A DNA stretch of 64,000 nucleotides from Mycobacterium barrassiae (GTDB lineage Bacteria; Actinomycetota; Actinomycetes; Mycobacteriales; Mycobacteriaceae): NCBI RefSeq assembly GCF_025822765.1, contig NZ_JACKUK010000029.1, positions 248,001-312,000 on the forward strand, written 5' to 3'. The translations under genes were made by a program, and so were the position numbers. Position 1 is the stretch's first letter, and every line of letters begins with the position of its first letter. This document shows positions 2,629 to 53,831 of the stretch, in pieces. The notes beneath the pieces were generated by a model that was not told the DNA's origin, searched no databases, and saw only the letters and a list, made by a program, of their open reading frames with translations.

Positions 2629-2724
2629 GTTCCAGTCCTAACTGTCCCGACCGATGCCAGCTGCGACCAAGATCAGTCTGGCCCTCGCACTGTATCTGAA
2701 CGGGGAAAATACCGCCGCCCGAAT

Positions 2725-3093
2725 TCAGTTCTGCGGTCCCGACCCCGTCACGGCGGCCTTGGCGTCATCGACGGACGCATGCAGCGACAGGATCTGGTCC
2801 AGCCCGGTCAACTCGATCGGTCGGCTGGTCGCCGGTCCGTCCGCGACGACCGCGAAGCCCGCCTCCCCTCTGACGCTCTCGTGGGTGGCCACCAACGCCT
2901 GCAGGCCCGCCGAGGCGAGGAAGTCCACCGCCGAGACATCGACGATCAACGCCGTGGGCCGCTGCTTCAACGCGTCGGCGATGGCCGCCTCGAAGGCCGG
3001 AATCGTTGCCAGATCTATTTCGCCGCTGACGGCCAGCACAGCCACGCCGTCGGCATGACTGACCGAGGTGGTGATCGGATCCTTCGGGGGCAC
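2725..3093 (-). CDS. STAS-domain anti-sigma factor antagonist
   Basis: This 122-residue protein is a single STAS domain. The motif DFLASAGLQ carries Ser61, the position that is phosphorylated by an RsbW/SpoIIAB-type kinase in anti-anti-sigma factors. GTG start. It is divergent from the RsbR-like gene across a 144-base gap, so it may share control with the stressosome operon and be its downstream target (an RsbV equivalent). The C-terminal HATPase domain of the phosphatase fusion at 5555-7756 is a candidate partner kinase, but that pairing is inferred from position. Confidence 0.85.
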   Translation of the reverse strand: MPPKDPITTSVSHADGVAVLAVSGEIDLATIPAFEAAIADALKQRPTALIVDVSAVDFLASAGLQALVATHESVRGEAGFAVVADGPATSRPIELTGLDQILSLHASVDDAKAAVTGSGPQN

Positions 3094-3237
3094 AACCGTC
3101 CTTCACTCAGCGCCGCGACAGGAAACGGCGGTGCGCCGAGCTTAACCCGTTGGCGCCGAACGGTAGATCCTCGCTTCGATACCGCCCCCTGTAGATGCAG
3201 GCTAGGGTCGAAAGGAAAGTTTGATCCGGGAGGTGCC

Positions 3238-4137
3238 GTGTCCGAACCGACAGACTTGGCCAGCGCCAGCGCAATCGCGCCGACTGCGGCCATCTCTTCC
3301 GAGGGACTGTTACCGCAACTGGTCGAGCATCTGCGGCAGAACCGCACCGCACTGCGTGAGGAATGGGCCCGCCGCATCACCGAGGCGGAACTCCTGACCG
3401 CGATGTCGCCGGAGGAGATCTTCTCCGAGGCCACCACCGTGTACGACAGCTATGTCGAGGTGCTCGAGACGGGCAGCGTGGAGGCCCTGCAGGATTACGC
3501 GCGCGATCTGTCCGAGCGCATCATCCCGCGCGGTGTCGAGACCAACGAGGTGGTCGGCATCGTGCTGCTGCTGCGCGACGTGCTCGCCCGCTCGCTGTTC
3601 GAGAAGTACCAGACCGACTTCGAACTGCTGAACAGGGTGCTCGACGCCTATGAACCGGCGGCCAACCGGATCGCCAACACCGTGGCCGTAGGCTTCGTGC
3701 AGGAACGCGAACGCATCATCCGCCAGCAGCAGGAGGCCATCCGCGAGCTGTCGACGCCCGTGCTCCAGGTGCGTGAGCAGCTGCTCATTCTTCCGATCAT
3801 CGGCATTCTCGACAGTCAACGGGCGCGCCAGGTCACCGAACAGCTGCTGCGGGCCATCCGGGCCAACCGCGCGAAGGTCGTCGTCATCGACATCACCGGT
3901 GTGCCCACCATCGATTCCACCGTGGCCAACCACCTGGTGCAGACCGTCGATGCCTCAGGGCTGATGGGCGCGAGCGTCATCATCACCGGGCTGTCCTCCG
4001 AGATCGCCCTGACACTGGTGACCATCGGGCTCGACCTGTCGAAGATGAACGCCGTCGGCGACCTCCAGGGCGGCATCGAGGAGGCCGAACGACTGCTCGG
4101 CTATGAGGTCACCCGCACCGGCGACCAACCCGGATAA
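3238..4137 (+). CDS. RsbR-like stressosome scaffold/sensor
   Basis: The GTG start is preceded by GGGAGGTG at about the right spacing. The product is about 299 residues. Residues 20-165 form a helical RsbR-type sensory N-domain (globin-like fold in known RsbR proteins). A linker helix and a C-terminal STAS domain (about 174-285) follow. Thr173 and the DST triplet at 226-228 sit where RsbR-family STAS domains are phosphorylated by RsbT. It lies 15 bases ahead of the RsbS-like gene. Together with RsbS and RsbT it should form the stressosome core that senses a signal and releases the kinase. The signal cannot be read from the sequence. Confidence 0.88.
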   Translation: MSEPTDLASASAIAPTAAISSEGLLPQLVEHLRQNRTALREEWARRITEAELLTAMSPEEIFSEATTVYDSYVEVLETGSVEALQDYARDLSERIIPRGVETNEVVGIVLLLRDVLARSLFEKYQTDFELLNRVLDAYEPAANRIANTVAVGFVQERERIIRQQQEAIRELSTPVLQVREQLLILPIIGILDSQRARQVTEQLLRAIRANRAKVVVIDITGVPTIDSTVANHLVQTVDASGLMGASVIITGLSSEIALTLVTIGLDLSKMNAVGDLQGGIEEAERLLGYEVTRTGDQPG

Positions 4138-7756: not shown

Positions 7757-7766
7757 CGGTCAGGTC

Positions 7767-8696
7767 CTAGGTTTGGCGGTCCCTGGCTTCCTCGTCTGCA
7801 GCCTGCCGTTCCCGCCTCGCCACGGCCGCCTCCAGCTCGGCTTCCAGCGCGCCCTCCTCGCGTCCGAGCGCGACCGTCGCGGCCGCCATCGCGACCAGCG
7901 CGACGGTGATCGCCACGGCTTTGACCCCGTTGACCGTCATGTGCTCCCCGAGCACGACCGCGCCGAGCACGACGGCGATCAACGGTTCGAGGACCAGCAT
8001 CGTCGGCACCGACGTCTGCAGTGAACCGGCGTGGAACGCCGACTGCTGCAGCAACACCGCCACCACTCCGATCACGACGAGCAGGTACGGCGCGGGCGTG
8101 GCGACGACGGCACGCACGCCGTCATGGGTCAGCAGATGCATCACGAGTTTGGTCAGCATCGCGACGACGCCGAACAACACACCGACGGCCACCGCGAGCA
8201 GCACCGCCCGCCGCCAGCCGGGATTGCGGATCGCGACGATGACGCACACCGACACCGCAACGAAGCACACCAGGGCGACGACGGCCGTCAACGGCACCGA
8301 CGCCTCGTAGTCGCCGGCGCTGGCCTTGGCCAACAGCACGAACACCGCCAGCGAGGCGGTCAGCACGATGGCCCACATCCATTCGCCGCGAGTCACCCGG
8401 CGATGGGCCAGCCGGGCACTCATCGGCAACGCGAAAAGCAGAGCCGACACCAGGATGGGTTGGACGAGCAGCAACGAACCGTAGGCAAGCGCGAGGGCCT
8501 GGAATGCGAACCCGGCGACCGCGGCAGCGGTTCCGGCCCACCACAGGGGTCGGCGTAGCAGCGTGAGCACCATCACGGCGCTCACGCCTTTTTCCTCGGG
8601 GACATCCATGGTCGCGCGTTGTCGGACCACGATGCCGATGGCGAGGAAGAGTGCGGCCAGGAGGGCGAACAGCACCGTCAGACCATGGCCTACCAA
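7767..8696 (-). CDS. DMT-superfamily (EamA-like) membrane transporter
   Basis: This 309-residue protein has about ten hydrophobic helices in two repeats, ending in a charged tail rich in Glu, Ala and Arg (residues 278-309). The start is a TTG with a strong GAGGAG ribosome-binding site (rc of 8703-8708), which outweighs the lack of ATG. It ends 10 bases from the stop of the phosphatase fusion, in convergent orientation. The substrate is unknown; DMT proteins of this layout include metabolite exporters. Confidence 0.8.
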   Translation of the reverse strand: MVGHGLTVLFALLAALFLAIGIVVRQRATMDVPEEKGVSAVMVLTLLRRPLWWAGTAAAVAGFAFQALALAYGSLLLVQPILVSALLFALPMSARLAHRRVTRGEWMWAIVLTASLAVFVLLAKASAGDYEASVPLTAVVALVCFVAVSVCVIVAIRNPGWRRAVLLAVAVGVLFGVVAMLTKLVMHLLTHDGVRAVVATPAPYLLVVIGVVAVLLQQSAFHAGSLQTSVPTMLVLEPLIAVVLGAVVLGEHMTVNGVKAVAITVALVAMAAATVALGREEGALEAELEAAVARRERQAADEEARDRQT

Positions 8697-10574: not shown

Positions 10575-11918
10575 TCACTGTATCGCTGTCGCCTGGTGCC
10601 GGTCGCTGGTCTGGGGAAGCGGCATGGCCGCCGTCTCGCGCAGCGTCAAAACCGCGGCCAGCGAGATGGCCGCGGCCACGATCAGATAGATCGCGGGCGC
10701 CGTGTTATTGCCGGTCTGCGCGGTGAGCCAGGTGACGACGTACGGCGTTGTGCCGCCGAACCCCGCGACGCAGACGTTGTACCCGATGGAGAACCCGCTG
10801 TAGCGCACGTTCGTGGCGAACAGCTCGACACCCGCCGACACCGCACTCGAGATGTAGATCGACTCGATGGCCGCCAGCACGCAGTGCGCGGTGATCGCCG
10901 CGGCGAGCGACCCGGAGTCCAGCAGCAGGAACAGCGGATAGGCAAGTACCGCGAAGGCCACCGAGCCGGCGATCAACATCGGCTTGCGCCCGATGCGGTC
11001 CGACAGCGCAGCCAACGGCAGGATCAACACCAGCGCCACGAACGTCGCCAGCGTCATGGACGTGAACGCCTCGGTCTTGGAGAACTTCAACGTCACGATG
11101 AGGTACGTCTGCAGGAACGTGAACACCACGTAGTAGCCGACGTTGAACACGATGAACAGGCCGATCACCTGCAGGATGGGCCGCCACGAGGTGGTCAGCG
11201 CCTCGCGCAGCGGCGACTTCGCCACCTGTTCGGTCTTGCTCAGTTCGGCGAACTGCGGGGTGTCGTCCAGCCGCAGCCGGATGTAGAGGCCGATCAGGCC
11301 GAGCGGGCCGGCGATCAGGAACGGGATCCGCCAGCCGTAACTGTTCATCGCCTCGGTGGGCAACAGCGCCTGGAGCAGCGTCACGGTCACGGAGCCGAGC
11401 AGGAACCCGACGACGCCCGACCACGCCATGAATGTGACGGTCAGACCGCGGCGCTGGTCGGACGCGAACTCCGCGAGGTAGACGGCACCGCCGCCGTACT
11501 CGCCGCCCGCCGAGAAGCCCTGCAGGCAGCGCAGGAAGAACAGCAACAGCGGCGCCGCGACGCCGATGGCGGCATACGTCGGAAGCAGACCGATGCACAC
11601 CGTCGCGCCGGACATCAGCAGGATCACCACCGCGAGGACGCGCTGCCGTCCGATGCGGTCGCCAAGCGGTCCGAACACAAATCCCCCGAGCGGACGCATG
11701 AAGAACGCGGCGGCGAAGATCGCGAACGTCTTCAGCAGGGCCGCGGTCTGGTCGCCCGCGGGGAAGAAGTTCGCGGCGATGAAGGTCGCGAGAAATCCGT
11801 AGATGGCGAAGTCGAACCATTCGACGGCGTTACCGATCGAGGCACCGGTGACGGCCTTGCGCACGTCTTGTTTCCCGGCATTGTTCCCGTCGCTGCGCTC
11901 GCCCTGGTCTGACGACAT
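10575..11918 (-). CDS. MFS metabolite:proton symporter (MHS/ProP-like)
   Basis: The product is about 447 residues from the ATG at 11918. It has twelve hydrophobic helices. The early segment [14 protein letters not shown] and the loop [11 protein letters not shown] are the hallmark of the metabolite-H+ symporter subfamily (ProP, KgtP, ShiA), and a second DRIGRKP lies mid-protein. Substrates of this group are organic acids, osmolytes or aromatic acids. Followed directly by a TetR gene that may regulate it. Confidence 0.85.
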
Positions 11919-12024
11919 GACTCTCCCGAATCTAAGCGTCCCGCTTACCATTTCGCTCACCGCGCTCGCGGGTGGTACCCCGCAAAGATAGCGGTCGCGT
12001 CGCGCGCTCGGCGAGGGGTTCGTG

Positions 12025-12447
12025 CTATCGGGAGGCGCGGTCGGCCCAGAACGGCCGCGTCACCAGCGCAACCAGCGCGAGCACGGAAAGCGGCGCCAGC
12101 AGCGGCACCCACGGCAGTTCGAGCGGCAGCGACACCGCCGCCAGGCCCACCGCCGTAAACCCCACGGCACCAATGAGCGTCGGCGCGGTGATGGCTGCGG
12201 TGTGCCGAAGCACCAGATAGCAGGCCGCGCAGAGTCCGGACAGCGCGGCGAGCATGGCCGGCATCTCGTTGAGCACCAGTGCGGCTGCGGTCAACAGGAC
12301 AGCCATCGTCGCCGCGGGACGAAAAATGTTGCCCACCAACACCGCAACGGTGGCGATTCCCCCCATGATCAGGGCGGCATCGTCGGCCTGCACAGCCGCC
12401 GCCGCGATCATCACGAGGCCGAAGGCGGTTGACAACGCGCGGTTCAT
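12025..12447 (-). CDS. Small membrane protein of the moxR3 cluster
   Basis: This protein of about 140 residues starts MNRALST at 12447, overlapping the stop of the DUF58 gene in ATGA. It has four or five hydrophobic segments and no soluble domain. By order and size it corresponds to the last gene of the M. tuberculosis moxR3 cluster (Rv3162c region). Function unknown; probably a membrane partner of the MoxR/DUF58 pair. Confidence 0.7.
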
Positions 12448-13709
12448 CGGCGCCTCCCCACCGTGCGCCGGTGGTACGGCACCAGTTGCATCGCCGTGTC
12501 GAGCGTGTCCACCGAACGCCAGGCGACGATGTCGACTCCGATCGTGGCCATGTCGCGGTACATGAATGACCTTTGCAGCGACCACATCCGGGCCACCACG
12601 CGGTCGATCTCGTCCTTGAACGGGGCGCCTTCGAGGACGTCGACGGCCACTACGGTATGGCCGCGCTTGCGCAGGTCGATCAGCGCCAGTGCGAACTCGG
12701 TGTCGATCAGCGTGGAGAACGCGACGACGATCGCGCCCGGCGGCACCGCCGCGCGCGGCGCCAAGGTGCCCGGCGTGGTCTCGTATCCGCCGTCGACGGC
12801 CAGCACCGCGTCGAGGACCCGGTAGAACTGCCGGCGCCCGATGTCGGCGCCGAGCCAGCGTGGGTGACGGTCGCCGAGCGCGACGATTCCCGCCCGGTCA
12901 CCGCTGCGCAGCGCGCTCTGTACGACCTGCACCGCTCCGCGCACGGTGCGGTCGGTGGCCCCGGTGGCCGGCCCTGCGGGCTGCGGATAGTTGTCGACCA
13001 ACACGACGACGTCGGCGGCGCGGTCGGTCAATCGCTGCGTGACGTGCAGGCTGCCGCGCCGTGCACTCACCGGCCAGTTGACCGTGCGGAGGTGATCGCC
13101 GGGTACGTATCGGCGGACGTCGGCGTATTCGACACCGGGCCCGATGTGCCGGGTGAGGTGGGTGCCGAGGCGGTCGAGCAGGTCGGTGCGTGGAATGGAT
13201 GTCGATTGCGGTGGAGTGACGGGAAACACGTAGACGTCGGCGGCGTCGACGACGCTCGTCCCCTGCAGCAGGCCGCCCCGCGCACGCACGGTCACCCGAC
13301 CCTGGATCGGGTACCGCCCCCAGCGGTCGGCCACGACGACCACGGTGTGGTTCACCCGAGATTCGCTGTGCAGCTGGTCGATTCGCATTTCCGGAAGCGT
13401 CGAGGCGGTGAGTTCGAGTGCGTCGGTGTCGGTCTCGGGTTCGGTCGTGGCCCACACGTGCACCCGCGCCGGTTCGGCTTCGAAGCAGCGGTGCGACCCG
13501 GGGTCGGCATGCACGACCACCGTGGGAACCGGTCGCTGCCACCCGATCGAACACACGACACCGAGCAGCGGCGCCGCGAACGCAACGAGCTGCCACAGTG
13601 AACCGATGACCGCGGTACCGAGCAGCACGGCCACGCAGGTGAGCAGAGCGAGCGTGAGTGATGAAGGGCGCCACTGCAATTGTGCCTCGGTGCTACGTGT
13701 CTCGATCAC
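12444..13709 (-). CDS. DUF58 domain protein of the moxR3 cluster
   Basis: This 421-residue protein has two N-terminal membrane helices (about residues 17-60), a beta-rich region, and a C-terminal DUF58 domain that includes EYADVRRYVPGDHLRTVNWPVSAR (about 195-220). The rest resembles a von Willebrand A-type fold. DUF58 proteins accompany MoxR AAA+ ATPases and are thought to be their partners in maturation or assembly of membrane or metal-containing complexes. The length and neighbours match Rv3163c. It begins 6 bases after the moxR stop. Confidence 0.85.
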   Translation of the reverse strand: MIETRSTEAQLQWRPSSLTLALLTCVAVLLGTAVIGSLWQLVAFAAPLLGVVCSIGWQRPVPTVVVHADPGSHRCFEAEPARVHVWATTEPETDTDALELTASTLPEMRIDQLHSESRVNHTVVVVADRWGRYPIQGRVTVRARGGLLQGTSVVDAADVYVFPVTPPQSTSIPRTDLLDRLGTHLTRHIGPGVEYADVRRYVPGDHLRTVNWPVSARRGSLHVTQRLTDRAADVVVLVDNYPQPAGPATGATDRTVRGAVQVVQSALRSGDRAGIVALGDRHPRWLGADIGRRQFYRVLDAVLAVDGGYETTPGTLAPRAAVPPGAIVVAFSTLIDTEFALALIDLRKRGHTVVAVDVLEGAPFKDEIDRVVARMWSLQRSFMYRDMATIGVDIVAWRSVDTLDTAMQLVPYHRRTVGRRR

Positions 13710-26047: not shown

Positions 26048-29000
26048 TCACGGTTGAACGCCGTCAATCGCGCGATAGATCCGTTGCTCGCTCACCGGCC
26101 GCGGGGTGCCGAGTTGTTGCGCCCACAGGCTGACCCGCAGTTCCTCGATCTGGCGCTCGATGTCACGGATGTCGTCAGCGGCCGCGCGGGTCGGCGAGAG
26201 TGCGCCAACGAGGTCGTCGAGCGCGTCCTGGACCGCATGCACGCGGGCCATCCGCTCGCGGTCCACCCCGACCGCGTGTGGCAGCCGGTCGAGCCGACGC
26301 AGGATGGCGGTCAGGTAGCGGGTGAGGTCGGTGAGCCGGCCTGCCCCGGTGATGGTGACAAAGCCCGTCGGCATGAGCCGCTCGAGCTGTTCGCGGATGT
26401 CGGCGATCGCGTCGGCCTGCGCAAGCACGGGATCGGCAGGCAATGCGAGATCCACCTCGTGGGCGGCGGCAAGTACCTTCTCGACCTGGCCCAGGATCGC
26501 CTGCGTCGTCGGCACCAGCTGCCCGGCGACCCGATCCCGCAGGGCGGTGAAATCGGCGCGGGTCCACACGGGTACCGGTGCGAGCCGGTCGGTCGCCGCG
26601 TCGGCGCAGTCGTCGAGCAGCGCCGCAAGAGACCCATCCGGGTTGGCGCCCAACACCAGTCGCGCGCGTGGATCCAGTGCTCGCTCAAGGCTCTTCGTGG
26701 GCGACGGCACAGCCAGGCGCAGCAGCCGGCGGGTTCCCGGCGCCATCGCGGCGGCCTGCTCCGCCGCCGTGGGGAACACCGTCACGTCGACGGCGGCGCC
26801 CGCGTCGACGAGCGCCGGATAGCCGCGCACCGCGTGCCCGCCGCTCGTTCGCTCGACGGTGCGAGGCAATTCGTCGAGGTCGTCGGGCCAGGCACGCAGG
26901 CCCGTCCGCTCGAGCCCGCCGGCCACCGCCTCGGCGACGGCCTGCCGGATCGGCGCGGCGAGCTGTGCCTGCAGCGCTTCGAGATCCTTTCCGCGGGCGA
27001 CCTCCTTGCCGTCGGACTCGACCGCGAACGTGACCCGAAGGTGCGGAGGCAACTTGTCGAGGTCGAAGGCGTCGATGGGCACCAGCACCCGGGTCAACCG
27101 GTGTAGCTCACGTTGCAGCGCCTGCAGTATCGGTTCGCCGTCCGGCTCGATCGCCGCGAGCACCGCCCGCGCAGTATCCGGTGCGGGAACAAAGTTGCGG
27201 CGCAGGTCCTTTGGCAGCGACTTGATCAGCGCGGTGACGAGTTCCTCGCGCAATGCCGGTACCTGCCAGCTGAATTCGTCGCCGCCGAGTCGGGCCAGCA
27301 CCTCGACGGGCACGTGCACCGTCACGCCGTCGTCCTCAGCACCCGGCTCGAACCGGTAGGTCAACGGCAGCGACAGCTCATCAGCGTGCCAGGTGTCGGG
27401 CTGATCGGAGGAGGGGTCATCCTTGCGCAACAGGTCGTCGCGGGTCATCGTGAGCAGCTCAGGTGTCTTGTGCCGCTGCTTTTTCCACCACGCGTCGAAG
27501 TACCTCGCCGACACGGCCTCTGGCGGGACCCGGGCGTCGTAGAACGCGTAGATCTCGTCGTCGCCGACCATCAGATCCCGGCGCCGCGCCTTCTCCTCGA
27601 GTTCGGTGAGTTGCTCGCGCAGTGCCGCGTTGTCACGGAAGAAGTGATGCCGGGTCTGCCAGTCCCCCTCGACGAGGGCGTGGCGGATGAACAGCTCCCT
27701 GGCCACCGCGGGCTCGACGTTCGCATAGCCGACGCGACGGCGCGGCACCAGCGGCAGCCCGAAGAGCGTGACGCGTTCGTAGGCCATCACCGCGCCGCGC
27801 TGGGCGTCCCAGTGCGGCTCGCTGTAGGTCCGCGCGACGAGGTCTCCTGCGATGCGTTCGACGGTGTCCGGCTGAATCCGCGCGGCGATGCGGCCGTACA
27901 GCCTGCTCGTCTCGACGAGGTCGGCGACGACGATCCAGCGCGGCGGGCGTTTGGTCAGCACAGAACCGGGTGCGAGCACGAACCTCACGTTGCGTGCGCC
28001 TTGGAAGTCGCGGGATTCGCCCTCCCGCAACCCGATGTGGGACAGCAGCCCGGCCAGCAGCGCCGCGTGCACCCGCGCCGGGTCGGCGGGCTCGCGGTCG
28101 TCGGACTCTCTGATGCCGAGATCGCGGGCGATGCTGCGCAGCTGGCCCGTCAAGTCCTGCCATTCGCGGATACGCAGGTAGTGCAGGAACTCCTCGCGGC
28201 ACATCCGCCGAAATGCGTTGCCCGAAAGTTCCTTCCGCTGCTCACCGAGGTAGCGCCACAGGTTCAGGTAGGAGATGAAATCCGAGTGCTCGTCGGCGAA
28301 CCGGGCGTGCTTCTGGCGTGCGGCCTCCTCGCGGTCGGTCGGACGTTCGCGCGGATCGGGTATCGACAGGGCGGCGGCGAGCACGAGAATCTCGCGCACA
28401 CAGCCCTCTTCGTCGGCCTGCAGGATCATCCGTCCCAGGCGCGGATCGACCGGCAGTTGCGCCAGCCGGCGGCCGATGTCGGTGATGGCGCCAGCCCCGG
28501 TTGGATTGCCGCCTCCGGCAGCGTGGTCGAACGCACCGAGTTCCTGCAGCAGCAGGATGCCGTCGCGGATGCTGCGCCGCTCAGGCGGGTCGAGGAATGG
28601 AAACGTCGCTACATTTCCCTCATCACCCAAGCCTAGCGCCGCCATCTGCAGGATGACCGACGCGAGGTTGGTGCGAAGGATCTCCGGATCGGTGTAACGG
28701 GGCCGCGATTCGAAGTCATCCTCGGAGTACAGCCGGATGCACACACCCGGTGCGGTGCGGCCCGACCGGCCGGCCCGCTGCGCCGCCGACGCCTGCGAGA
28801 TCGGTTCTATCGGCAACCGCTGCACCTTGGTCCGACGGCTGTAGCGCGAGATGCGCGCGGTGCCCGGATCGACGACGTAGCGGATGCCCGGCACCGTCAG
28901 TGATGTCTCGGCGACGTTGGTGGCCAACACGATCCGCCGCACATTCTTGCTGGGCTGGAACACCCGCTGCTGTTCGGCGGTCGGCAGCCGGGCGTAGAGC

Positions 29001-29980
29001 GGCAGCACCTCGGTGTTCTTCAGATGGCGTAAAGCCTCTGCGGTGTCACGGATTTCGCGCTCACCCGACAGGAACACCAGGACATCGCCGGGCGGCTCGG
29101 CGGTCAATTCGTTCACGGCGTCGACGATGGCCTCGGTTTGATCCCGCATCTCGGTGCGGACGATCTCGTGGTCGGGATCCTCCGGGTCGTCGGAGTCGTC
29201 GGCCACGACAGGAACTTCGAGCGGCCGGTACCGGATCTCGACCGGATACGTGCGTCCCGACACCTCGACGATCGGCGCGCCGTTGAAGTGAGCCGCGAAC
29301 CTCTCCGGCTCGATGGTCGCCGACGTGACGATCACCTTGAGGTCGGGCCGTCGCGGAAGCAGCTCACGCAGGTAGCCGAGCAGGAAGTCGATGTTGAGGC
29401 TGCGCTCGTGCGCCTCGTCGAGGATCAGGGTGTCGTAGCGCAGCAGCCGCCGGTCGCGCTGGATCTCGGCCAGCAGGATGCCGTCGGTCATCAGCTTCAC
29501 CAGGGTCCGGTCGCTCGCCTGGTCGGTGAACCGCACCGTGTATCCGACGGCCTCCCCCAGCGGCGTGCCCAACTCGTCGGCGATGCGCTGCGCCACGGTG
29601 CGCGCGGCCAGACGCCGCGGTTGGGTGTGCCCGATCGTGCCGCGGATGCCGCGCCCGAGTTCGAGGCAGATCTTGGGCAGCTGGGTCGTCTTTCCTGAAC
29701 CCGTCTCACCGGCGACGATGACGACCTGATTCTCGGTGATCGCCCTGGCGAGCTCGTCGCGCCGCTCGCTGACGGGCAGATCGGGGTAGGTGACCGTGGG
29801 CACGGCGGCCAGGCGGGTGGCGATGAGACCTTCCGCCGCGGCGATCTGCTCGGCGACCTTTCGAACTTTGTCGGGCCCCGCACCACGAAGGTTCTTGAGG
29901 CGACGGCCGAGACGCGACGCGTCGCGGATCGTCAGGCCGTCGAGGCGCTTGCGGAGCTCGGCGACGGACGGCTCGGACAT
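26048..29980 (-). CDS. hrpA: ATP-dependent RNA helicase HrpA
   Basis: The product is about 1310 residues from the ATG at 29980 (MSEPSVAELR). The open frame continues upstream, but that part is the antisense of the MTHFR-like gene. Walker A is GETGSGKTT (91-99), DEAH is at 188-191 and SAT at 220-222. RecA2, winged-helix, ratchet and OB-fold regions follow, then the long DUF3418 C-terminus typical of HrpA. The size is normal for HrpA. In E. coli HrpA acts on stalled or colliding ribosomes; its mycobacterial role is less clear. Confidence 0.93.
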   Translation of the reverse strand: MSEPSVAELRKRLDGLTIRDASRLGRRLKNLRGAGPDKVRKVAEQIAAAEGLIATRLAAVPTVTYPDLPVSERRDELARAITENQVVIVAGETGSGKTTQLPKICLELGRGIRGTIGHTQPRRLAARTVAQRIADELGTPLGEAVGYTVRFTDQASDRTLVKLMTDGILLAEIQRDRRLLRYDTLILDEAHERSLNIDFLLGYLRELLPRRPDLKVIVTSATIEPERFAAHFNGAPIVEVSGRTYPVEIRYRPLEVPVVADDSDDPEDPDHEIVRTEMRDQTEAIVDAVNELTAEPPGDVLVFLSGEREIRDTAEALRHLKNTEVLPLYARLPTAEQQRVFQPSKNVRRIVLATNVAETSLTVPGIRYVVDPGTARISRYSRRTKVQRLPIEPISQASAAQRAGRSGRTAPGVCIRLYSEDDFESRPRYTDPEILRTNLASVILQMAALGLGDEGNVATFPFLDPPERRSIRDGILLLQELGAFDHAAGGGNPTGAGAITDIGRRLAQLPVDPRLGRMILQADEEGCVREILVLAAALSIPDPRERPTDREEAARQKHARFADEHSDFISYLNLWRYLGEQRKELSGNAFRRMCREEFLHYLRIREWQDLTGQLRSIARDLGIRESDDREPADPARVHAALLAGLLSHIGLREGESRDFQGARNVRFVLAPGSVLTKRPPRWIVVADLVETSRLYGRIAARIQPDTVERIAGDLVARTYSEPHWDAQRGAVMAYERVTLFGLPLVPRRRVGYANVEPAVARELFIRHALVEGDWQTRHHFFRDNAALREQLTELEEKARRRDLMVGDDEIYAFYDARVPPEAVSARYFDAWWKKQRHKTPELLTMTRDDLLRKDDPSSDQPDTWHADELSLPLTYRFEPGAEDDGVTVHVPVEVLARLGGDEFSWQVPALREELVTALIKSLPKDLRRNFVPAPDTARAVLAAIEPDGEPILQALQRELHRLTRVLVPIDAFDLDKLPPHLRVTFAVESDGKEVARGKDLEALQAQLAAPIRQAVAEAVAGGLERTGLRAWPDDLDELPRTVERTSGGHAVRGYPALVDAGAAVDVTVFPTAAEQAAAMAPGTRRLLRLAVPSPTKSLERALDPRARLVLGANPDGSLAALLDDCADAATDRLAPVPVWTRADFTALRDRVAGQLVPTTQAILGQVEKVLAAAHEVDLALPADPVLAQADAIADIREQLERLMPTGFVTITGAGRLTDLTRYLTAILRRLDRLPHAVGVDRERMARVHAVQDALDDLVGALSPTRAAADDIRDIERQIEELRVSLWAQQLGTPRPVSEQRIYRAIDGVQP

Positions 29981-29991
29981 CCCGGCTCGGG

Positions 29992-30885
29992 TCAGGCCTG
30001 GTCCGGCGACCAGTAGGCGAGCATCTCGGCGAACGTGGTGAACGCCGGGGTGGAGACCCCGTAGGTGGCCTCGAAGTGCACGCTGAGCGGGAAGCCGAGG
30101 TCGCCGACGCCGTCGATGACCCGCTTGTACAGATCGACCATCAGCTTGCGCTTCTGCGCTGGCTCGGCGGCGGCGAGCTGCCTGACGAACTCCTGCTCGG
30201 CGGCGACGGCCGGGTTGCCTGGATCCTGGATCAGCCAGTTGATGAGGCCGACGTTGGTCTCCACCTTCGGCACGAAGCCGAACGACAGCAGGATCTCGGG
30301 CCGGTGATCGGTTTCCTTGGCGAAGTTGCGTAGGAATCCGACGATCGCGTCCGAGTACAGCAGTTGGGTCATGCCGTACGTCGCGCCCTGGTCGCATTTG
30401 AAGTTGAACCGGCCGTGCTCACCCTCGCGGGTCGGGATCAGGATCACGCCGCGGTTGGGCACCAGGTCGTCGAAGATCGACAGCGCGTCGGTGGGCGCGA
30501 CACCGGAACCCTCGCCGTCATTCATGGTGCGCGGAACGCCGACGAACGCGATGCCGTCGAAACCCGCCGAGCTCAGCGACATCAGCCGCTGCCGCAGCGC
30601 CGGCTTGTCCAGGAACGCCGTCACCTGGGTGCACAGGCCGTTCATACCGGGCAGCTCGGACCTGATGTCAGTCCAGAACTCCAGGACGTCCATCTTCGGC
30701 TTCATCTCGATCGGCCGATCGTCGTCCTCTTCGATCATGCCGGGGATCATCACGTGCCGGATGCGGCCCTCGAGGCCGGTCTCCGCGGAGCACCTCAGCA
30801 CCTTCTGCGCATCCTCCAGCGCCCGCTCACGCCCGTCCTGGACGTTGGGCGGAACGAGTTCGAGCGCGATGGTGTTGAGCGTCAC
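29992..30885 (-). CDS. MTHFR-like protein (atypical mycobacterial methylenetetrahydrofolate reductase)
   Basis: This 297-residue protein resembles the short mycobacterial MTHFR-type proteins (Rv2172c group) rather than canonical MetF. It starts NTIALELVPP, in place of the classical FEFFPP, and continues with GMNGLCTQVTAF, GFDGIAFVGVPR and DQGATYGMTQLLY. Members of this group have been described as working without bound FAD, which I recall but cannot check. The predicted role is reduction of methylene-THF for methionine synthesis. GTG start. The gene precedes hrpA by 11 bases and is divergent from selO. Confidence 0.65.
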   Translation of the reverse strand: MTLNTIALELVPPNVQDGRERALEDAQKVLRCSAETGLEGRIRHVMIPGMIEEDDDRPIEMKPKMDVLEFWTDIRSELPGMNGLCTQVTAFLDKPALRQRLMSLSSAGFDGIAFVGVPRTMNDGEGSGVAPTDALSIFDDLVPNRGVILIPTREGEHGRFNFKCDQGATYGMTQLLYSDAIVGFLRNFAKETDHRPEILLSFGFVPKVETNVGLINWLIQDPGNPAVAAEQEFVRQLAAAEPAQKRKLMVDLYKRVIDGVGDLGFPLSVHFEATYGVSTPAFTTFAEMLAYWSPDQA

Positions 30886-46779: not shown

Positions 46780-48648
46780 ATGTCCACTCCCACTAGGCAA
46801 GCCACCAACCTCGACAGCGCCGCGATCGAGCGGTTCACCGCAGCGGTCGCCGGCCACGCCGAGATCGTCACCGACGAGACGGTGCTGACCCAGCGCGGCC
46901 ACGACTTCTGGGGTGTGGGCGGGACGGCGGATCTTCTGTTGCGCCCGCACAGCCGCGACGAGATCGCCGCGATCATGCGGATCGCGTCCGAGTACGGCAT
47001 CGCGATCGTTCCCCGCGGCGGGGCGTCGAACTGCTCCGGCGGCATGATGCCCGAGCACGGCCGGGTACTGCTGGACCTGTCGGGCCTGAATCACATCATC
47101 GACGTCGACGTGGCCGGCCGGCGGGCGCGGGTGGAGGCCGGGGTCATCAACTCCGACCTGCAGGACGTTCTGGCCCCGCACGGGTTGTGCTTCTCCCCCG
47201 ATCCGGTGTCGGCACACCTGGCCACCGTGGGCGGCAACCTCATCGAAAACGCCGGCGGCCCACACGCATTGAAGTACGGCGTCACCTACAACCACATCCT
47301 GGCGGCGGAGGTCGTGCTGCCCGACGGATCCACCGTCACCTTCGCCGTCGACGACGACGGCCCGGATCTGCTGGGTGTGCTCATCGGGTCGGAGGGCACG
47401 CTGGGCATCGTCACCGAGGTGACGGTGGCACTGCGCCCGATCGCCCCGGTGACCCACAGCCTGATGGGCGCGTTCGCGTCTGCGCGCGAGGCCGCCGACA
47501 CCATCTCGGCGATCATCGCCACCGGTGTGGTGCCGTCGGCCGTGGAATGGCTGGACCGCGACGGCATCGCCGGGTTGCAGCAGTTCTACGACACCGGCTA
47601 TCCGCTGGATGCCGATTCGATCGTGCTCATCGATGTCGACGGGACCGCCGAGGAGGTCACCCGCGATCAGGCGATCGTGGAGCGGGTGCTGCGTGAGCAC
47701 GCCACCGAGGTCCGCGTCGCCGAGGAAGACAAGGACCGCGCCGCCCTGTGGTACGGCCGGTTGCACGCTCCCGACTCGGTGGTGGCCAGCGGCAAGGGCT
47801 TCTTCATCGGCGATGTCACCGTGCCCCGCGACCGCATCCCCGAGATGCAGGAAGCCATCCAGGCGACCGCCGAACGGCACAAGGACGGGCTGCTGTTCAT
47901 CGCGGTGTGCGGACACGCCGGCGACGGCGATCTGCATCCCACCACGTTCTACGACAAGGACAACCCGAAGGCCGCCGCAGCATTGAAAGCCGCCAACGAC
48001 GAGATCATCGCCGCCGCTTTGGAATTGGGCGGCACCATCACCGGCGAGCACGGAGTGGGCACCGAGAAGATCGCGTTCATGACTCAGCGGTTCACCCCGG
48101 TCGAGATCGCCGCGCAGCGCGCCATCAAAGCGGTGTTCGACCCTGCCGGTCTGCTCAACCCCGGCGTCATGCTGCCCGAGGTGTCACCGGCCGAACCCGA
48201 CGTGCACCGGTTCGGCGCCGCGGTCCGCGACGCCCTGGCCGGGACCCTCACGCCCGATGCCAAGGCACCGTTGACCGCAGGCGGTAACACCGACATCGAG
48301 GTCAACCTCGGCAACCTGAGCTTGGTGGTGGGTGCGGAGGCGACGCTGGACGACATTCGGAGTCATCTCGACGAGCAGGGCGTCGTCTGCGTCGCCGTCC
48401 CGGCGACAGGCGGCGGGCGCACCATCGGTGAGCTCGTGGCGACCGCCACCGGTGATGAACGCATCGAGGTTCGGCATGCCCTGCTGGGCGCCGACGTCAC
48501 CGTCATCGACGGCGACGCCCCCGCCCGCTTCGGCGCCGAAACGATGAAGGACGTCGCGGGTTACGACACCAAGCGCCTCTACATCGGCGGCCATGGTGCC
48601 TTCGGCGCCCTGACCAAGCTGATCTTCAAGATCAAGGTCAAGGCCTGA
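46780..48648 (+). CDS. FAD-linked oxidase: GlcD-like subunit fused to a GlcE-like C-terminal segment
   Basis: This is a 622-residue protein. Residues 1-470 form a GlcD/D-lactate dehydrogenase-type oxidase, with PCMH FAD site VPRGGASNCSGGMM, SEGTLGIVTEVT and a C-terminal cap with CGHAGDGDLHP and TGEHGVG. About residues 495-622 resemble GlcE: LSLVVGAEATLDDIRSHLDE and FGAETMKDVAGYDTKRLYIGG. It probably oxidises a 2-hydroxy acid such as glycolate or lactate. No GlcF iron-sulfur subunit is nearby. Start supported by AAGGAGG. Confidence 0.85.
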   Translation: MSTPTRQATNLDSAAIERFTAAVAGHAEIVTDETVLTQRGHDFWGVGGTADLLLRPHSRDEIAAIMRIASEYGIAIVPRGGASNCSGGMMPEHGRVLLDLSGLNHIIDVDVAGRRARVEAGVINSDLQDVLAPHGLCFSPDPVSAHLATVGGNLIENAGGPHALKYGVTYNHILAAEVVLPDGSTVTFAVDDDGPDLLGVLIGSEGTLGIVTEVTVALRPIAPVTHSLMGAFASAREAADTISAIIATGVVPSAVEWLDRDGIAGLQQFYDTGYPLDADSIVLIDVDGTAEEVTRDQAIVERVLREHATEVRVAEEDKDRAALWYGRLHAPDSVVASGKGFFIGDVTVPRDRIPEMQEAIQATAERHKDGLLFIAVCGHAGDGDLHPTTFYDKDNPKAAAALKAANDEIIAAALELGGTITGEHGVGTEKIAFMTQRFTPVEIAAQRAIKAVFDPAGLLNPGVMLPEVSPAEPDVHRFGAAVRDALAGTLTPDAKAPLTAGGNTDIEVNLGNLSLVVGAEATLDDIRSHLDEQGVVCVAVPATGGGRTIGELVATATGDERIEVRHALLGADVTVIDGDAPARFGAETMKDVAGYDTKRLYIGGHGAFGALTKLIFKIKVKA

Positions 48649-48767: not shown

Positions 48768-51017
48768 GTGGCCACCTCCCTGTCAGCCGTCGAGGCGTCG
48801 CAGCCGGAACGGCTGGTTTCGGCGGCCGCCGAAGTCGGCGCACGGACGGCGCAGCTCGACAGTCTGATAACGACGCAGCGCGAGTCCGTCGACAAGCTGC
48901 GTGAGGGGTGGTCGGGATCCGCGGCCAACGCCGCATTGGCCCGCGGCGAAAAGAATCTCGTCAGCCAGGAAGCGCTGCGCGACAAACTGCGGACACTGCA
49001 GGGAGTGCTCGCCACCGGAGGTGGGCAGCTGGCCTCGACGCGCACTGCCCTGCTGGACTTGGTTTCTCAGCTGAAGAGCCAGGGTTGGCAGGTCTCCGAC
49101 AGCGGGGTTGCGACGCCTCCGCCCAACCTGCCCGAGGTGTTCCGCAGCTATCCGCAGGCTTACACGCAGATGCTGCAGCGCCTGCTCAAGACCTACGACG
49201 GTATCGACGGTGAGACCGCAAGCAAGTTCCCTACGTTCGACGAGGACGGGGACGCCAAGCCCGACATGTCATTCGTCGTCGGGGACGACCCCCGCAAGGA
49301 GGAGATCGAGGACCTGGTGCGCCGCTCGCTAGCGGGCGACAAGGACGCCGCCCGACAGGTCGACGACATTCTCGACGGCATCAACCCGAATCAACTCCAG
49401 CCGCACACCGATCCGAACAATCCAGGCGTCACCGCGCCGCCGGTGCCATTGACGCCGGACCAGGCCGAAGTGGTCAGCCAGATGCAGTCGCAGATGAGCG
49501 GCAAGTCGCTCGACGAGCTGGTGCAGCTGAAGAACGACCTCGGTGAACACGGCGACATCATCGGCGACTCGATGCAGGTCATGAGCGATCCCGACGTGAA
49601 ATTCCCGCTGGTGATCGATGAGCCGTTCCAGGACCAGCTTCCGCCGGGCATCGACGCCGACTCGATGACGGGCGGCAAAGGCATGCTGCCCCAAAGCGTG
49701 AAGGATGCGCTCGACGCTCCCGCGGTCAGCCGCGACATCACCGATCCCAACCAAACCGTTCCCGTCACCACCTATCCGTCCGGCGATGATCTGAAGAAGG
49801 TCTCCGATCTGATCAAGGCCGGCGACGCGCAGTTCCAGCAGGGTTCCGAACTCGACCGCACGATGATGGACCGCGCGGTCGACGTATTGCACGGGGCCGA
49901 GCAGGAGAACCGGGATTACTTCAAGAGCTCGAACCCGCAAGGCGATTCGATCGCTCAGGACATCTTCAACTCGGCCGGCCGCGATCAGATCGTCAGCCAC
50001 GACATGCTCACAGAGCCGAACTCGACGTTCCTCGACGACATCGCGCGACACGAGTGGACCGACAACGGCGCCTCGGTCCGAACTCTCACCGATTGGGTGC
50101 ACGACGGAGCGACATCGAGCAATCCCGACGTTGCGCTGCGAGCAGGCGAGACAGCGAACGCGCTGTCGTCATACCTCGGCGACAAGGGCGACGACCTGTT
50201 GAATCTGCAACACCCCGGGGGGTGGGGCCTCTACGAGAACACAACGGTCGGCCAGATGAATCCCGATCTTGTGCAGGGCTGGGGCGATGCGCTCGATCCG
50301 TATCAGAAGGCGATGCTCGGTGACGGGCAGATGCCCGGCTTCGAACCCGTACCAGGGACGGCGAATTCAGATTTCACCGAGATGCGCAACATCTTCGCCG
50401 TGATGGATTCGGACCCGACGGCGGCGAAGGCGTGGAACGAAACGGCGTACGGGCACATCCTCGACTACCAACGCAATCCCGACTACAACAACCTCGCGAA
50501 CGCCGGCGCCATGCTCGGCGTCATCGATTCTGCGGCGGTACAGGAGATGGAGTCCCGCGGCGCCAACAATCTCGACAACCAGAAGGCCGTCTACGACATG
50601 AGGAAGGCCGCGCTGGGCGCTGCACTCGGCTGGCCGGCGAGCCAGGTGCCCGCTGTCGGCGGCACGATTGCAGAGCTGACGATCAAGGGGATGATCGGCT
50701 CGGAGCCCACCCTCGAATCGGTGGCGGCGAATGCGCCCACCACCACCGTTGCCGACGCGATGAACCAGACGAACTTCTACATCGCCGAAGACCTGGTGCA
50801 AAACGATCCCAATCTCGGCGAGATGGCCCAGTACGTCGAGGACGGGGCGCTGAAGCGCCCCGAGGACATCCCGGAGGGCCAACGACGTGACTACTTCCTC
50901 GATATGCAGGAGTATGTGGAGAACCGCGGTTTCGCCAACGCGATGGACACCTTCTACAAGCAGTACCAGGAGGCCGGCGGAATCAACGTGCCGAAAGGAT
51001 TCTCCCTGCGCGGATGA
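48768..51017 (+). CDS. Large WXG-type protein with helical C-terminal region (putative ESX substrate)
   Basis: The product is about 749 residues from the GTG at 48768; a GTG at 48738 is the alternative. The first 100 residues are an ESX-type helical hairpin with Trp48-Ser-Gly50 in REGWSGSAANAAL. A region with acidic and Pro-rich linkers (about 120-240) follows, then a long helical domain. Residues about 420-749 resemble the ectodomain of the next gene's lipoprotein. No toxin motif is recognised. Its place beside the ESX-1 locus suggests export by that system. The ATGA overlap with the lipoprotein gene shows that they form a pair. Confidence 0.75.
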   Translation: MATSLSAVEASQPERLVSAAAEVGARTAQLDSLITTQRESVDKLREGWSGSAANAALARGEKNLVSQEALRDKLRTLQGVLATGGGQLASTRTALLDLVSQLKSQGWQVSDSGVATPPPNLPEVFRSYPQAYTQMLQRLLKTYDGIDGETASKFPTFDEDGDAKPDMSFVVGDDPRKEEIEDLVRRSLAGDKDAARQVDDILDGINPNQLQPHTDPNNPGVTAPPVPLTPDQAEVVSQMQSQMSGKSLDELVQLKNDLGEHGDIIGDSMQVMSDPDVKFPLVIDEPFQDQLPPGIDADSMTGGKGMLPQSVKDALDAPAVSRDITDPNQTVPVTTYPSGDDLKKVSDLIKAGDAQFQQGSELDRTMMDRAVDVLHGAEQENRDYFKSSNPQGDSIAQDIFNSAGRDQIVSHDMLTEPNSTFLDDIARHEWTDNGASVRTLTDWVHDGATSSNPDVALRAGETANALSSYLGDKGDDLLNLQHPGGWGLYENTTVGQMNPDLVQGWGDALDPYQKAMLGDGQMPGFEPVPGTANSDFTEMRNIFAVMDSDPTAAKAWNETAYGHILDYQRNPDYNNLANAGAMLGVIDSAAVQEMESRGANNLDNQKAVYDMRKAALGAALGWPASQVPAVGGTIAELTIKGMIGSEPTLESVAANAPTTTVADAMNQTNFYIAEDLVQNDPNLGEMAQYVEDGALKRPEDIPEGQRRDYFLDMQEYVENRGFANAMDTFYKQYQEAGGINVPKGFSLRG

Positions 51018-51976
51018 CACGCTCGACGAGAACGATCAGCATTCTGGCGGCGCTGCTCATTGCGGTGTCCGCCTGCGGTAGTTCACCTCCCGAGCTTCCC
51101 CCGGACTCTCCGTCGGCGATGGTCGAGTTACTCACCAGCGATACGGGCAACGCCGACCTGAAGAAGTTGACGACGTACGAATGGGACGACGACGGCGCGG
51201 CCGCCGGGGCTCAGTTCACGTGGATCGGCGAAAATGCCGCCTCGACGGACGGCGCCGTCGCCGCACAGGCGGCACAGGCTGCGGCGGCACTCGCCGAGTT
51301 CCTGATCGCCGACCACGCCGCCCTGATGGCCGTGGGTTCGGGCTTCCTCGGGCTTTCGAAAGTTCCAGCTGCACAACTCAATCCGCTTCTTGTCAGGAGC
51401 TACTCGGCTGCGCTGGCACCCTTCTTCGGCGACCTGGTCGGCGGGCAACAGCAGGCCTTTGAAACCGTTCGCACCGAGGTGTTGGCCGACCCGTCCGCGC
51501 TACGAAACCTGCTGTCGGTCCTGGTCGCAGACCCTGAGGCCGGTCGAACCGCAGTCGAAACAGCCCGAGTTGCCGCGGAACGGTATGAGGATGCCGCCGC
51601 TGCGGATCCACCGGGCGGTGACGAGTCCGTCACCGACCTCACCGCGGCCGGATCGCTACTGGGGTCGTCATTCGGCGCCGTCAAGCAGGAGGGCAGCGAC
51701 ATCCCGACCCGGACCAGCGGTGAGGCGCTCAACGACATGGCGGTCCGCATCGCTTCGACTCTGGTGCGGTCGGATCCGAATCCGGCGAAGGTCAGCAAGT
51801 ACGTGCAGGACGGCGCACTCATGACTCCCGACGAGGTGGAGCGCACCTTCTCCAATGCCGCGATGCGCACATACTTCCTCGACTTGCAGGATTACATCTC
51901 GACCAAGGGATTCGGCGACGGCCTGAGCGCATTTCAGGATGCTTTCAAGGCCACGTCCAACGAAGCCGCGCGGTAG
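51014..51976 (+). CDS. Lipoprotein related to the C-terminal half of the WXG-type partner
   Basis: This 320-residue protein has a lipoprotein signal with lipobox VSAC (Cys21). The mature part is all-helical and aligns over most of its length with the upstream protein: TYEWDDDGAAAGAQFTWIG matches HEWTDNGASVRTLTDWVHD, and near the C-terminus YVQDGAL and YFLDLQDY match YVEDGAL and YFLDMQEY. It should sit on the outer face of the plasma membrane. It might bind, anchor or neutralise the partner. Its stop is 2 bases from that of the convergent EspC-like gene. Confidence 0.78.
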   Translation: MTRSTRTISILAALLIAVSACGSSPPELPPDSPSAMVELLTSDTGNADLKKLTTYEWDDDGAAAGAQFTWIGENAASTDGAVAAQAAQAAAALAEFLIADHAALMAVGSGFLGLSKVPAAQLNPLLVRSYSAALAPFFGDLVGGQQQAFETVRTEVLADPSALRNLLSVLVADPEAGRTAVETARVAAERYEDAAAADPPGGDESVTDLTAAGSLLGSSFGAVKQEGSDIPTRTSGEALNDMAVRIASTLVRSDPNPAKVSKYVQDGALMTPDEVERTFSNAAMRTYFLDLQDYISTKGFGDGLSAFQDAFKATSNEAAR

Positions 51977-51978
51977 CG

Positions 51979-52287
51979 TCAGGTCGGGATGTCGACGTCA
52001 CGGATGGCGTCGGCAGTTGATGCATCCTCGCCGAGATACGCGCGCGCCGCGGCACCCAGGTTGTCACCGTACTTGCGAACACTCTCGACTGCGGCAGTGA
52101 CGGCGGCGGCTACACCCTGTTGCGCCCTCCGGCATGAGTCCGCCGTCAGTGACTGCCCCGCCGCGGCGGCCGCGTCACCGATCGGGGTGTCGGCCTCAAT
52201 GCGGTTCAACGCGTCGACCACGTCACCGAAAACCATTGTCGCGCTTTGCAGCGCCTGGGGATTTACCCTGAGTATCTCGGCATTCAC
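51979..52287 (-). CDS. EspC/EspF-like ESX-1 secretion-associated protein
   Basis: This 102-residue protein starts at a GTG preceded by GAGAGGAG. It is helical, with the early pattern ILRVNPQALQSATMVFGDVV and a late YGDNLGAAARAYLGED that fit the DUF2580 (EspC) family of co-secreted ESX-1 proteins. It has no WXG. It is 17 bases downstream of eccD1 and is the last ESX-1 gene of this strand in the window, where eccE1 and mycP1 would be expected in other species. Confidence 0.78.
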   Translation of the reverse strand: MNAEILRVNPQALQSATMVFGDVVDALNRIEADTPIGDAAAAAGQSLTADSCRRAQQGVAAAVTAAVESVRKYGDNLGAAARAYLGEDASTADAIRDVDIPT

Positions 52288-52304: not shown

Positions 52305-53831
52305 TCAGAACCGCAGATTTCGCAGCAGGTCGTAGACGCTGGCGATCCACAGCAGCATCGGGATCACCGCAGCTATCGCCGCACCGTCGAGCAACTCCAA
52401 GATCCGCTTCGTCACCGGGGAGACCCGCTGCACGCTGCGCGTCGCTCCGAGCACGATCAAGGCCACGACCCCCATCGCCGTATAGACACTGAGCACCAGC
52501 CACGCACGATCGGGCGACCACAGTGCCAGCTTGACCATCAACCCCGTCGGGATGATGACGACCGCCGCCAACAAGGCCCACGCACACCACCGTTCGGCGT
52601 ACAGACGGGATCGGAATGCGCAGATCGACATCACCAACCCCGCGACGATCATGCTGTGGAGGAAGAAATGTCCTTCAACCACAACACTTATCGCTCCGAG
52701 CGACAGGATCAGCGCACCCGCTGTCACGAAGCCGATGAGCAACCGCCTGGCCAACTGACTACGGGCGTGCAGTCGCGCAGCGGAATCCGGCACCGACTCG
52801 ATGATCGCCTGCCACGTCGGTGATTCATGGCCGTCAGGCGTGATGACCGGGTCGAGAAGTTCCTCGCTGCCCACGGTTTCGCCGGGCGCAGGGATCGGCG
52901 GCAGGGCGATCCGCGCGACCGCGACCGTCAGCTTGGCGGCGTTGGTGACGACGATCAGGCCGAACGCAATCGCACCGGCGGGCACCCAGAACCCCCAGCC
53001 GTAGCCGACGGCGACTGCGGCCGCCGTCGCGGCAATCGAGACCACCGCCGAAAACGCTGCCAATTCGGCTCTCTTGCGCGGCCCACCCCTGGTCGCGAGC
53101 GTCAACAGCAGCACCACTGCCGCGGCACCCGCCACCTGGGGCGCACCTAGCGAGTCGTAGCCCAGCGGCAGCGGAACCGCCAGCGCCGCGCCGCCGGCGA
53201 GTGTCGGTAGCGCGGCGACCAACAGGCTCTCCGCCATGTCGACGTTCTGGTACCTGCTGGCCGCGAACGCGCTGCCACCGAGCAGTACCAGGCCGAGCAT
53301 TCCGAGCGCTGCCGCCCACCACCAGTCATGACCGCTCTGCGTCCACGCCACCATCGACATGACGGTCAGCGCCAACGCTGCGAACGGAATTGCCAGCGTG
53401 ACAAAGCGGCTGAGGGCTTGACGGTCGAATTCCGGCGACTCGTCGAGCACCGCGATCGCATCGATCACATCCTCGACCAGCGGTCGATAGCGCTCTGTTC
53501 GGCTGACCGACACCAGGGTCAGAAGTGATCCGTCAACGACACCGGCGTCGTCCAGCGATTCGTTGAACTTCAACGGGGGCGCACCCGGCCGCGCGAACGC
53601 CCACACGCCTTGTGCACCAAAGTCGAACCCCGCGAGGACATCCTTGGACGTGTCCTCGTGGAGATCAGCCAGCACCGACACCGTCTCGTCGATATACGTC
53701 TCGATCGGCGCCGACGCCGGCAGCACCAGGTCGGTCATCCGTCGCCCGGTCAGGATCGTCACCCGCGTCGTCAACGGCCGACCGGGCGTTACGCCCGACG
53801 ACACCGGCGTGGGAGCAACGGGGGCGGTCAA
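52305..53831 (-). CDS. eccD1: ESX-1 membrane component EccD1
   Basis: This 508-residue protein has an N-terminal ubiquitin-like domain (about 20-110, RVTILTGRRMTDLVLPASAPIE) followed by about eleven membrane helices. It matches EccD1 (511 residues in M. tuberculosis) in length and order. EccD dimers form the membrane vestibule of the secretion complex. Its start overlaps the espI stop by four bases. Confidence 0.93.
   Translation of the reverse strand: MTAPVAPTPVSSGVTPGRPLTTRVTILTGRRMTDLVLPASAPIETYIDETVSVLADLHEDTSKDVLAGFDFGAQGVWAFARPGAPPLKFNESLDDAGVVDGSLLTLVSVSRTERYRPLVEDVIDAIAVLDESPEFDRQALSRFVTLAIPFAALALTVMSMVAWTQSGHDWWWAAALGMLGLVLLGGSAFAASRYQNVDMAESLLVAALPTLAGGAALAVPLPLGYDSLGAPQVAGAAAVVLLLTLATRGGPRKRAELAAFSAVVSIAATAAAVAVGYGWGFWVPAGAIAFGLIVVTNAAKLTVAVARIALPPIPAPGETVGSEELLDPVITPDGHESPTWQAIIESVPDSAARLHARSQLARRLLIGFVTAGALILSLGAISVVVEGHFFLHSMIVAGLVMSICAFRSRLYAERWCAWALLAAVVIIPTGLMVKLALWSPDRAWLVLSVYTAMGVVALIVLGATRSVQRVSPVTKRILELLDGAAIAAVIPMLLWIASVYDLLRNLRF

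Follow-up and report, generated by a model that had tools for sequence, protein, structure and literature searches.

We analysed a 64,000-nt window of the Mycobacterium barrassiae genome (GCF_025822765.1, NZ_JACKUK010000029.1, positions 248,001-312,000 of the forward strand), in which two overlapping genes on the plus strand adjoin the eccD end of an ESX-1 locus. The upstream gene encodes a protein of 749 residues, hereafter the long protein, and the downstream gene a predicted lipoprotein of 320 residues, which together with its homologs we call type A. The pair had been noticed in an earlier sequence-only reading, and both open reading frames (ORFs) lie where that reading placed them (Table 1). 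It had also placed the pair next to ESX-1, which agrees with the genes found beyond it; these encode EccD, a ParA-type protein in the EspI position, a PPE protein, two FtsK/SpoIIIE ATPases and EccB. The two genes share four bases, and the same -4 spacing is seen in 8 of the 12 type-A pairs in our survey. An alternative in-frame GTG at 48708 would extend the long protein to 769 residues.

The ectodomain of the lipoprotein had been proposed to align with the C-terminal part of its partner. We found that the two proteins are 27% identical over 317 columns by BLASTP (E=4e-24, single comparison), and that the three motif pairs named in that reading all lie inside this alignment in the order claimed. 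A profile-profile comparison gave a probability of 100 (E=1.1e-57, 280 columns) between 12 type-A lipoproteins and the C-terminal regions of the long proteins paired with them. Taken together, these values place the homology far above chance and extend it over the whole ectodomain. When the lipoprotein was used to search its own genome, the matches were itself and the partner long protein only.

The long protein belongs to the PF23275 (TPR_23) family, with a match of 160.4 bits against a curated cut-off of 27 (E=8.5e-47). Its N-terminal WXG hairpin was borne out in part. The WXG100 match is weak (20.8 bits against a cut-off of 27.3, E=4.6e-4) and the TIGR03930 match (E=1.8e-5) is also below the curated cut-off, but a WSG motif and a YxxxD motif (YDGID) are present. 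This suggests a hairpin of the WXG/LXG type with an export motif, likely a signal for export by a type VII secretion system (T7SS). The YxxxD motif also occurs in shortened versions of the gene in loci L008 and L009 and genomes G145 (YAVID) and G124. Some of its TPR_23 relatives have a PF18879 (EspA_EspE) module at the N-terminus, but the N-terminal module (N-module) of the long protein is WXG100-like, and PF18879 gave no match to the protein at E<=1. The N-module is 36% identical over 132 columns to that of an alpha/beta-hydrolase protein on plasmid pTY66_01 (L090). The structure model of the long protein (predicted local distance difference test, pLDDT, of 46) was too poor for a structural search.

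The 320-residue protein is predicted to be a lipidated bacterial lipoprotein, as its signal is a hydrophobic stretch closing in VSAC and the last residue of this motif, Cys21, is invariant in 14 of 14 aligned sequences. PF23275 reaches the window lipoprotein over its last 40 positions only, at 21.1 bits and below the cut-off; all 14 aligned type-A lipoproteins match this profile at E<=0.01. The best of five structure models (six sequences) had a pLDDT of 78 and a predicted template modelling score of 0.78, and is almost wholly helical and solenoid-like. Foldseek found no match to this model at E<=0.001 in the PDB or in a viral library, and VIA-align returned HEAT/ARM proteins at middling scores only.

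We next consider how the two genes are distributed. PF23275 matches were present in 81 of 198 genomes sampled from the genus, in 16 of 200 genomes of the order (8 of these 16 from the genus) and in 0 of 14 control genomes. With the lipoprotein as query, 71 of the 198 genus genomes had matches, mostly to the C-termini of long proteins, and five, its own genome included, had matches of at least 60% identity. From the loci around the listed genus matches we collected 89 long ORFs of at least 550 residues, two of them in phages, with the near-copies L118/L119, L052/L094 and L059/L128 among them. We then scored the slot behind each long gene, counting a downstream gene if its start fell between -70 and +500 bases, with a correction where remnants were present. 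One long gene, at a contig edge (L108), was left unscored. A lipoprotein gene occupies the slot behind 72 of the other 88, and these fall into 12 of type A, 55 of a type B and 5 of a type C, while 16 long genes have none. The 55 include L145, where about 650 bases separate a broken long ORF from the type-B gene that follows; the labels of L145 and of L138 (type C) come from a DNA search for remnants. Two candidates were discarded. What looked like a type-A lipoprotein in L144 is the C-terminal end of the long protein itself, set off by a frame break, and the 'lipoprotein' of L091 is spurious.

Type A and type B are unrelated (hhalign probability 41, N-terminal region only), and 0 of 21 type-B members matched Pfam. 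Type-B proteins, such as that of L040 (7857-8825), are about 220-325 residues long and have a conserved PGWP end. Eight further loci came from IMG/VR, and in each of the six whose long gene is complete the ORF downstream carries a lipobox. Five of these ORFs are of type B by hidden Markov model (HMM), and one is short and has no HMM match; the incomplete L152 and L153 were left out of the slot score.

These counts do not agree with the strict pairing next to ESX loci that the sequence-only reading had named as a supporting sign. Only 3 of the 12 type-A pairs adjoin ESX-1; in the 16-20 kb around the other nine there was no match (E<=1e-4) to the window EccB, EccC, EccD, EspI-like or PPE proteins. 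Nor are the genes always together. Most long genes carry an unrelated lipoprotein or none, and an intact long gene is missing beside the lipoprotein in L064 (two lipoprotein copies) and in L008, L009, L062 and L063; in these last four the first ~160-170 residues of the long protein are all that is left. The 89 do not include 16 loci in which no long ORF reaches 550 residues (L008, L009, L061-L064, L075-L079, L090, L101, L103, L113 and L147); among them type B is found in L076 and L078 and type A in L064 and L075.

We built a tree from 20 type-A lipoproteins and 82 C-terminal bodies. The lipoproteins are set apart in it by a branch with a Shimodaira-Hasegawa-like approximate likelihood ratio test (SH-aLRT) value of 93 (not starred), and seven type-A bodies cluster with them (SH-aLRT 84). 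The simplest, although not proven, explanation is that one duplication of a type-A body gave rise to the type-A lipoproteins. Lipoprotein distances correlate with long-protein distances (r=0.88, 11 pairs), also without the near-copy L060 (r=0.66, 10 pairs, 1/10,000 permutations). By segment, the correlation with the lipoprotein was r=0.66 for the TPR region, r=0.50 for the C-terminal body (37/10,000) and r=0.13 for the N-module (2013/10,000). The lipoprotein co-diversifies with the body of the long protein and not with its N-module. It diverges faster than the long body (64% versus 81% identity between the window and L010).

The N-module itself is exchanged between relatives. It is of EspA_EspE type in L046, L071, L074 and L138, of Hydro_N_hd type in L058 and WXG100-like in the window and L060. 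Similar N-modules are found on 19 other ORFs in the surveyed loci, many of which are fragments. Three complete proteins of this kind carry other cargo and have another lipoprotein gene at -4 bases (L090, and the 451-residue and 455-residue ORFs of L067 and L138), and these cassettes have the layout of polymorphic effector systems. The HExxH-like motif of the L067 protein makes it and its lipoprotein a candidate metalloprotease-type effector pair.

The lipoprotein family behind the long gene has changed repeatedly. Mapped on a tree built from all 89 long proteins, the A/B label requires five changes, four of them forced by starred branches, against a mean of 11 for shuffled labels; this tree came from a quick search and has three long end branches, including L043, which carries one of the changes. 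The sisters L073 and L046 have long proteins 46-86% identical along their length, and the adjoining lipoprotein is of type A in the former and type B in the latter. L073 also has a second type-A remnant, and L046 a type-A remnant behind its type-B gene. Three tandem type-A genes of mosaic identity are present in L071, two type-A genes without a long gene in L064, and a row of C, B, B and A genes, some without a called signal, in L074. Such arrays, mosaics and orphans are found in these relatives and not in the window. The rows span 8440-11297 in L071, 9197-11513 in L064 and 10784-15518 in L074, with some genes broken and some rows lacking a long gene. At least two A/B lipoprotein ORFs or remnants lie within 6 kb of 16 of the 89 long genes, an uncurated count in which L127 includes a neighbor's genes and some entries may be fragments of one broken gene. 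Near several array loci are genes that, by eye, we take to encode topoisomerase I and the delta-prime subunit of DNA polymerase III.

The sequence-only reading gave no named system with this layout. This stands for the self-homologous lipoprotein, as we found no immunity or partner lipoprotein described as a paralog of its effector in a literature search made mostly at title level, with subscription papers underrepresented. It does not stand for the layout as such, since mycobacteriophage polymorphic toxin-immunity (PT-Imm) cassettes have a relative of the long protein and a downstream lipoprotein of another family. In phage Aegeus (gp34-36) and prophiFSAT01-1 (gp96-98) a relative of the long protein is followed by a lipoprotein gene, with function predicted (PMC8092301). 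Aegeus gp35 is 24% identical to the long protein over 484 columns (E=7e-26) and FSA97 22% over 495 columns (E=8e-12), and the type-B relative beside the Aegeus long gene is annotated 'polymorphic toxin immunity protein'. These cassettes differ from the window in that the phage lipoprotein is of type B, unrelated to type A, and in that the phage long gene has a small WXG100 gene in front of it, whereas none lies upstream in the window.

Lipoprotein immunity candidates and cassette exchange are described in M. abscessus prophages (PMC8092301, PMC9934374), and tandem, mosaic and orphan immunity genes at Firmicute T7SS loci (PMC9484751). TslA-TilA of Staphylococcus aureus likewise comprises a T7SS substrate and an adjoining immunity lipoprotein of variable copy number; however, TslA, a phospholipase, has its domains in reverse order and TilA is a DUF576 protein, and the available text of that report does not mention homology between them (PMC10730906). 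TipC of TelC-TipC (PMC6193138) and ExiCD of EsxX-ExiAB/ExiCD (PMC12744356) are also outward-facing, membrane-anchored immunity proteins, and both systems have paralogous or orphan copies. EsxX is countered by two unrelated immunity families, ExiAB and ExiCD (PMC12744356). Unlike the window lipoprotein, TipC is an alpha/beta crescent (PMC6193138), ExiAB is soluble and ExiCD polytopic (PMC12744356), and none of the three is described as a paralog of its toxin in the parts available (PMC6193138, PMC12744356). These sources already offer precedents for lipoproteins that confer immunity, for mosaic immunity genes in tandem and for one toxin countered by unrelated families of immunity protein, two in number; as far as they go, they do not describe a lipoprotein, be it an immunity protein or another partner, that is paralogous to its effector.

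We tentatively favor, with close to even confidence, the reading that the long protein is an effector resembling polymorphic toxins and that the lipoprotein is its immunity protein, facing the envelope and derived from the body of the effector itself. The exchangeable helical module (WXG here, EspA/EspE or Hydro_N_hd in relatives) would target the long protein to the T7SS, which would export the TPR_23 domain together with the alpha-solenoid body. Anchored on the outer side of the membrane, the lipoprotein would bind the body as it arrives from kin or on its way out, and this would keep the effector from acting on the producer's own envelope. Since the lipoprotein would be a descendant of a duplicated effector C-terminal body, it would serve as a decoy bound to the membrane, occupying the surface through which the effector oligomerises or binds its target. 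The occupancy of the slot, the immunity annotation in phages, the arrays, the precedents for such arrays and for lipoprotein immunity at other T7SS loci, the cassettes with other cargo and a lipoprotein that tracks the body yet diverges faster all argue for this reading. A fuller scenario, in which the body was duplicated once, gained a lipoprotein signal to become decoy immunity, competes with unrelated families for the slot and spreads by arrays and by recombination between mycobacterial loci, is possible but somewhat doubtful.

Several results weigh against an effector with its immunity protein. Domain profile searches assigned the long protein no domain known from toxins, and the lipoprotein is modelled as a scaffold of helical repeats that lacks a catalytic fold. 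No lipoprotein adjoins 16 of the 88 scorable long genes, nor any of the 8 long genes outside the genus (six from one genome and two from two others; 12 stretches were examined, and the profiles found no long ORF in four). No lipoprotein can be made out clearly behind three other complete N-module proteins (397 residues in L008, 393 in L009, 376 in L067). In M. neglectum, M. tusciae, G145 and G124 the long gene on the ESX-1 side stops after the hairpin and YxxxD motif (~160-170 residues) while the lipoprotein is kept; pairwise ratios of nonsynonymous to synonymous substitution rates (dN/dS) of 0.19-0.37 for the shortened gene and 0.24-0.33 for the lipoprotein among these four indicate purifying selection on both. 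The long body is conserved in the window's clade (dN/dS 0.05-0.13, with dS near saturation in some pairs), the TPR_23 bodies are colinear, and the last ~170 residues drift with no abrupt swap of tips. An antidote specific for the tip would not predict alike long proteins with unlike lipoproteins, as in L046 and L073.

Loss of the body with the lipoprotein kept, and a long protein with no known toxin domain and a conserved body whose tip does not swap, leave some probability for a docking role. Here the lipoprotein would be a membrane-anchored subunit with the same solenoid; by stacking with the long protein it would retain this in the envelope to form a surface structure or a secretion-associated scaffold, with no toxicity. 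The domain shared over the whole ectodomain, a predicted helical solenoid of a kind that commonly serves as a binding scaffold, the co-diversification with the body, the low dN/dS of the long protein and the proximity to ESX-1 in the window's clade fit this. However, in 55 of 88 relatives the slot is taken by an unrelated family, and a shared fold is therefore dispensable. The tandem, mosaic and orphan copies, the retention of the lipoprotein where the body is lost and its absence behind the outgroup long genes also argue against docking, which we consider rather doubtful. Alternatively, the lipoprotein may have taken over the body's job as a stand-alone surface solenoid, with its coupling to the long gene a relic of duplication. 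This would suit a possible single origin of type A beside the type-A bodies and the four loci with lipoprotein and hairpin in which the body is gone. It is unlikely given the purifying selection on the long body in the window's clade, the presence of type A behind long genes from several branches and at least four changes of the A/B label.

Least probable, and in our view very unlikely, is an EspK-like secretion chaperone or receptor whose fold keeps or hands over an ESX-1 substrate. An EspC-like gene does adjoin the pair, and the C-terminus of EspK is reported to resemble residues 184-410 of Rv3899c (5IMU), with Rv0029 and Rv2082 similar in fold (PMC9811218). The Rv3899c fold, however, is an alpha/beta/alpha sandwich (PMC9811218), whereas the lipoprotein model is almost wholly helical. 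Sequence searches of the PDB matched neither protein to the 5IMU chain, and 5IMU was not among the Foldseek or VIA-align matches listed for the lipoprotein model. Such chaperones also act inside the cell and the lipoprotein outside. Rv3899c-Rv3900c of M. tuberculosis has been reported as an interrupted coding sequence (PMC7283319).

If the effector-immunity reading is correct, a widespread and so far uncharacterised mycobacterial TPR_23 family would be an effector-immunity system exported by ESX machines, which have been studied mostly for host interaction. The immunity protein would be a paralog of its effector, which predicts a decoy mechanism, and accessory genes of chromosomal ESX-1 loci would be linked with phage-borne cassettes.

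Table 1. Coordinates of the gene pair, its parts and neighbors, and of cassettes with other cargo; positions refer to the window unless a locus is named.
Feature	Position	Strand	Basis
Long WXG/TPR_23 gene, 749 residues, GTG start, TGA stop	48768..51017	+	ORF; PF23275 match
WXG100-like helical hairpin, residues ~1-110, WSG at 48-50	48768..49097	+	WXG100, TIGR03930
YxxxD motif YDGID, residues 143-147	49194..49208	+	pattern match
TPR_23 (PF23275) domain, residues 226-443 (246-463 in the 769-residue reading)	49443..50096	+	profile match
C-terminal body homologous to lipoprotein, residues 422-734	50031..50969	+	BLASTP, profile-profile
Overlap of 4 bases, ATGA, long-gene stop and lipoprotein start	51014..51017	+	sequence
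Type-A lipoprotein gene, 320 residues, ATG start, TAG stop	51014..51976	+	ORF; invariant Cys21
Predicted lipoprotein signal peptide and lipobox cysteine, residues 1-21	51014..51076	+	sequence; alignment
Ectodomain matching partner's body, residues 49-312, predicted almost wholly helical	51158..51949	+	BLASTP; model
EspC-like small protein, 102 residues, convergent	51979..52287	-	PF10824 T7SS_ESX_EspC, E=0.001, 19.9 bits, below cut-off 23.5
EccD, ESX-1 membrane component	52305..53831	-	PF19053 and PF08817
L067, 451-residue ORF, EspA_EspE-type N-module and HExxH-like motif (by eye), overlapping a 172-residue lipoprotein gene	11142-13012	+	
L138, 455-residue ORF, EspA_EspE N-module, no assigned C-terminus, then 170-residue lipoprotein at -4	2150-3517	-	
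L090, plasmid pTY66_01, cassette of EspC-like gene, WXG-alpha/beta hydrolase and 174-residue lipoprotein	5652-8318		

The EspC-like protein encoded next to the pair is a possible helical partner, although its gene is convergent and its profile match falls below the Pfam cut-off. Immediately 5' of the long gene lies a 622-residue ORF that by eye resembles FAD-linked oxidases (46780-48648, plus strand), and its counterpart in L060 is 96% identical and in the same position. The window also holds an ORF of 1449 residues (26048-30397, minus strand). At the same ESX-1 end in M. neglectum (L008, 3293-7385, plus strand), a proline-rich ORF that by eye is EspK-like, the EspA_EspE-type ORF of 397 residues and a probable membrane protein gene sit just before the shortened WXG gene.

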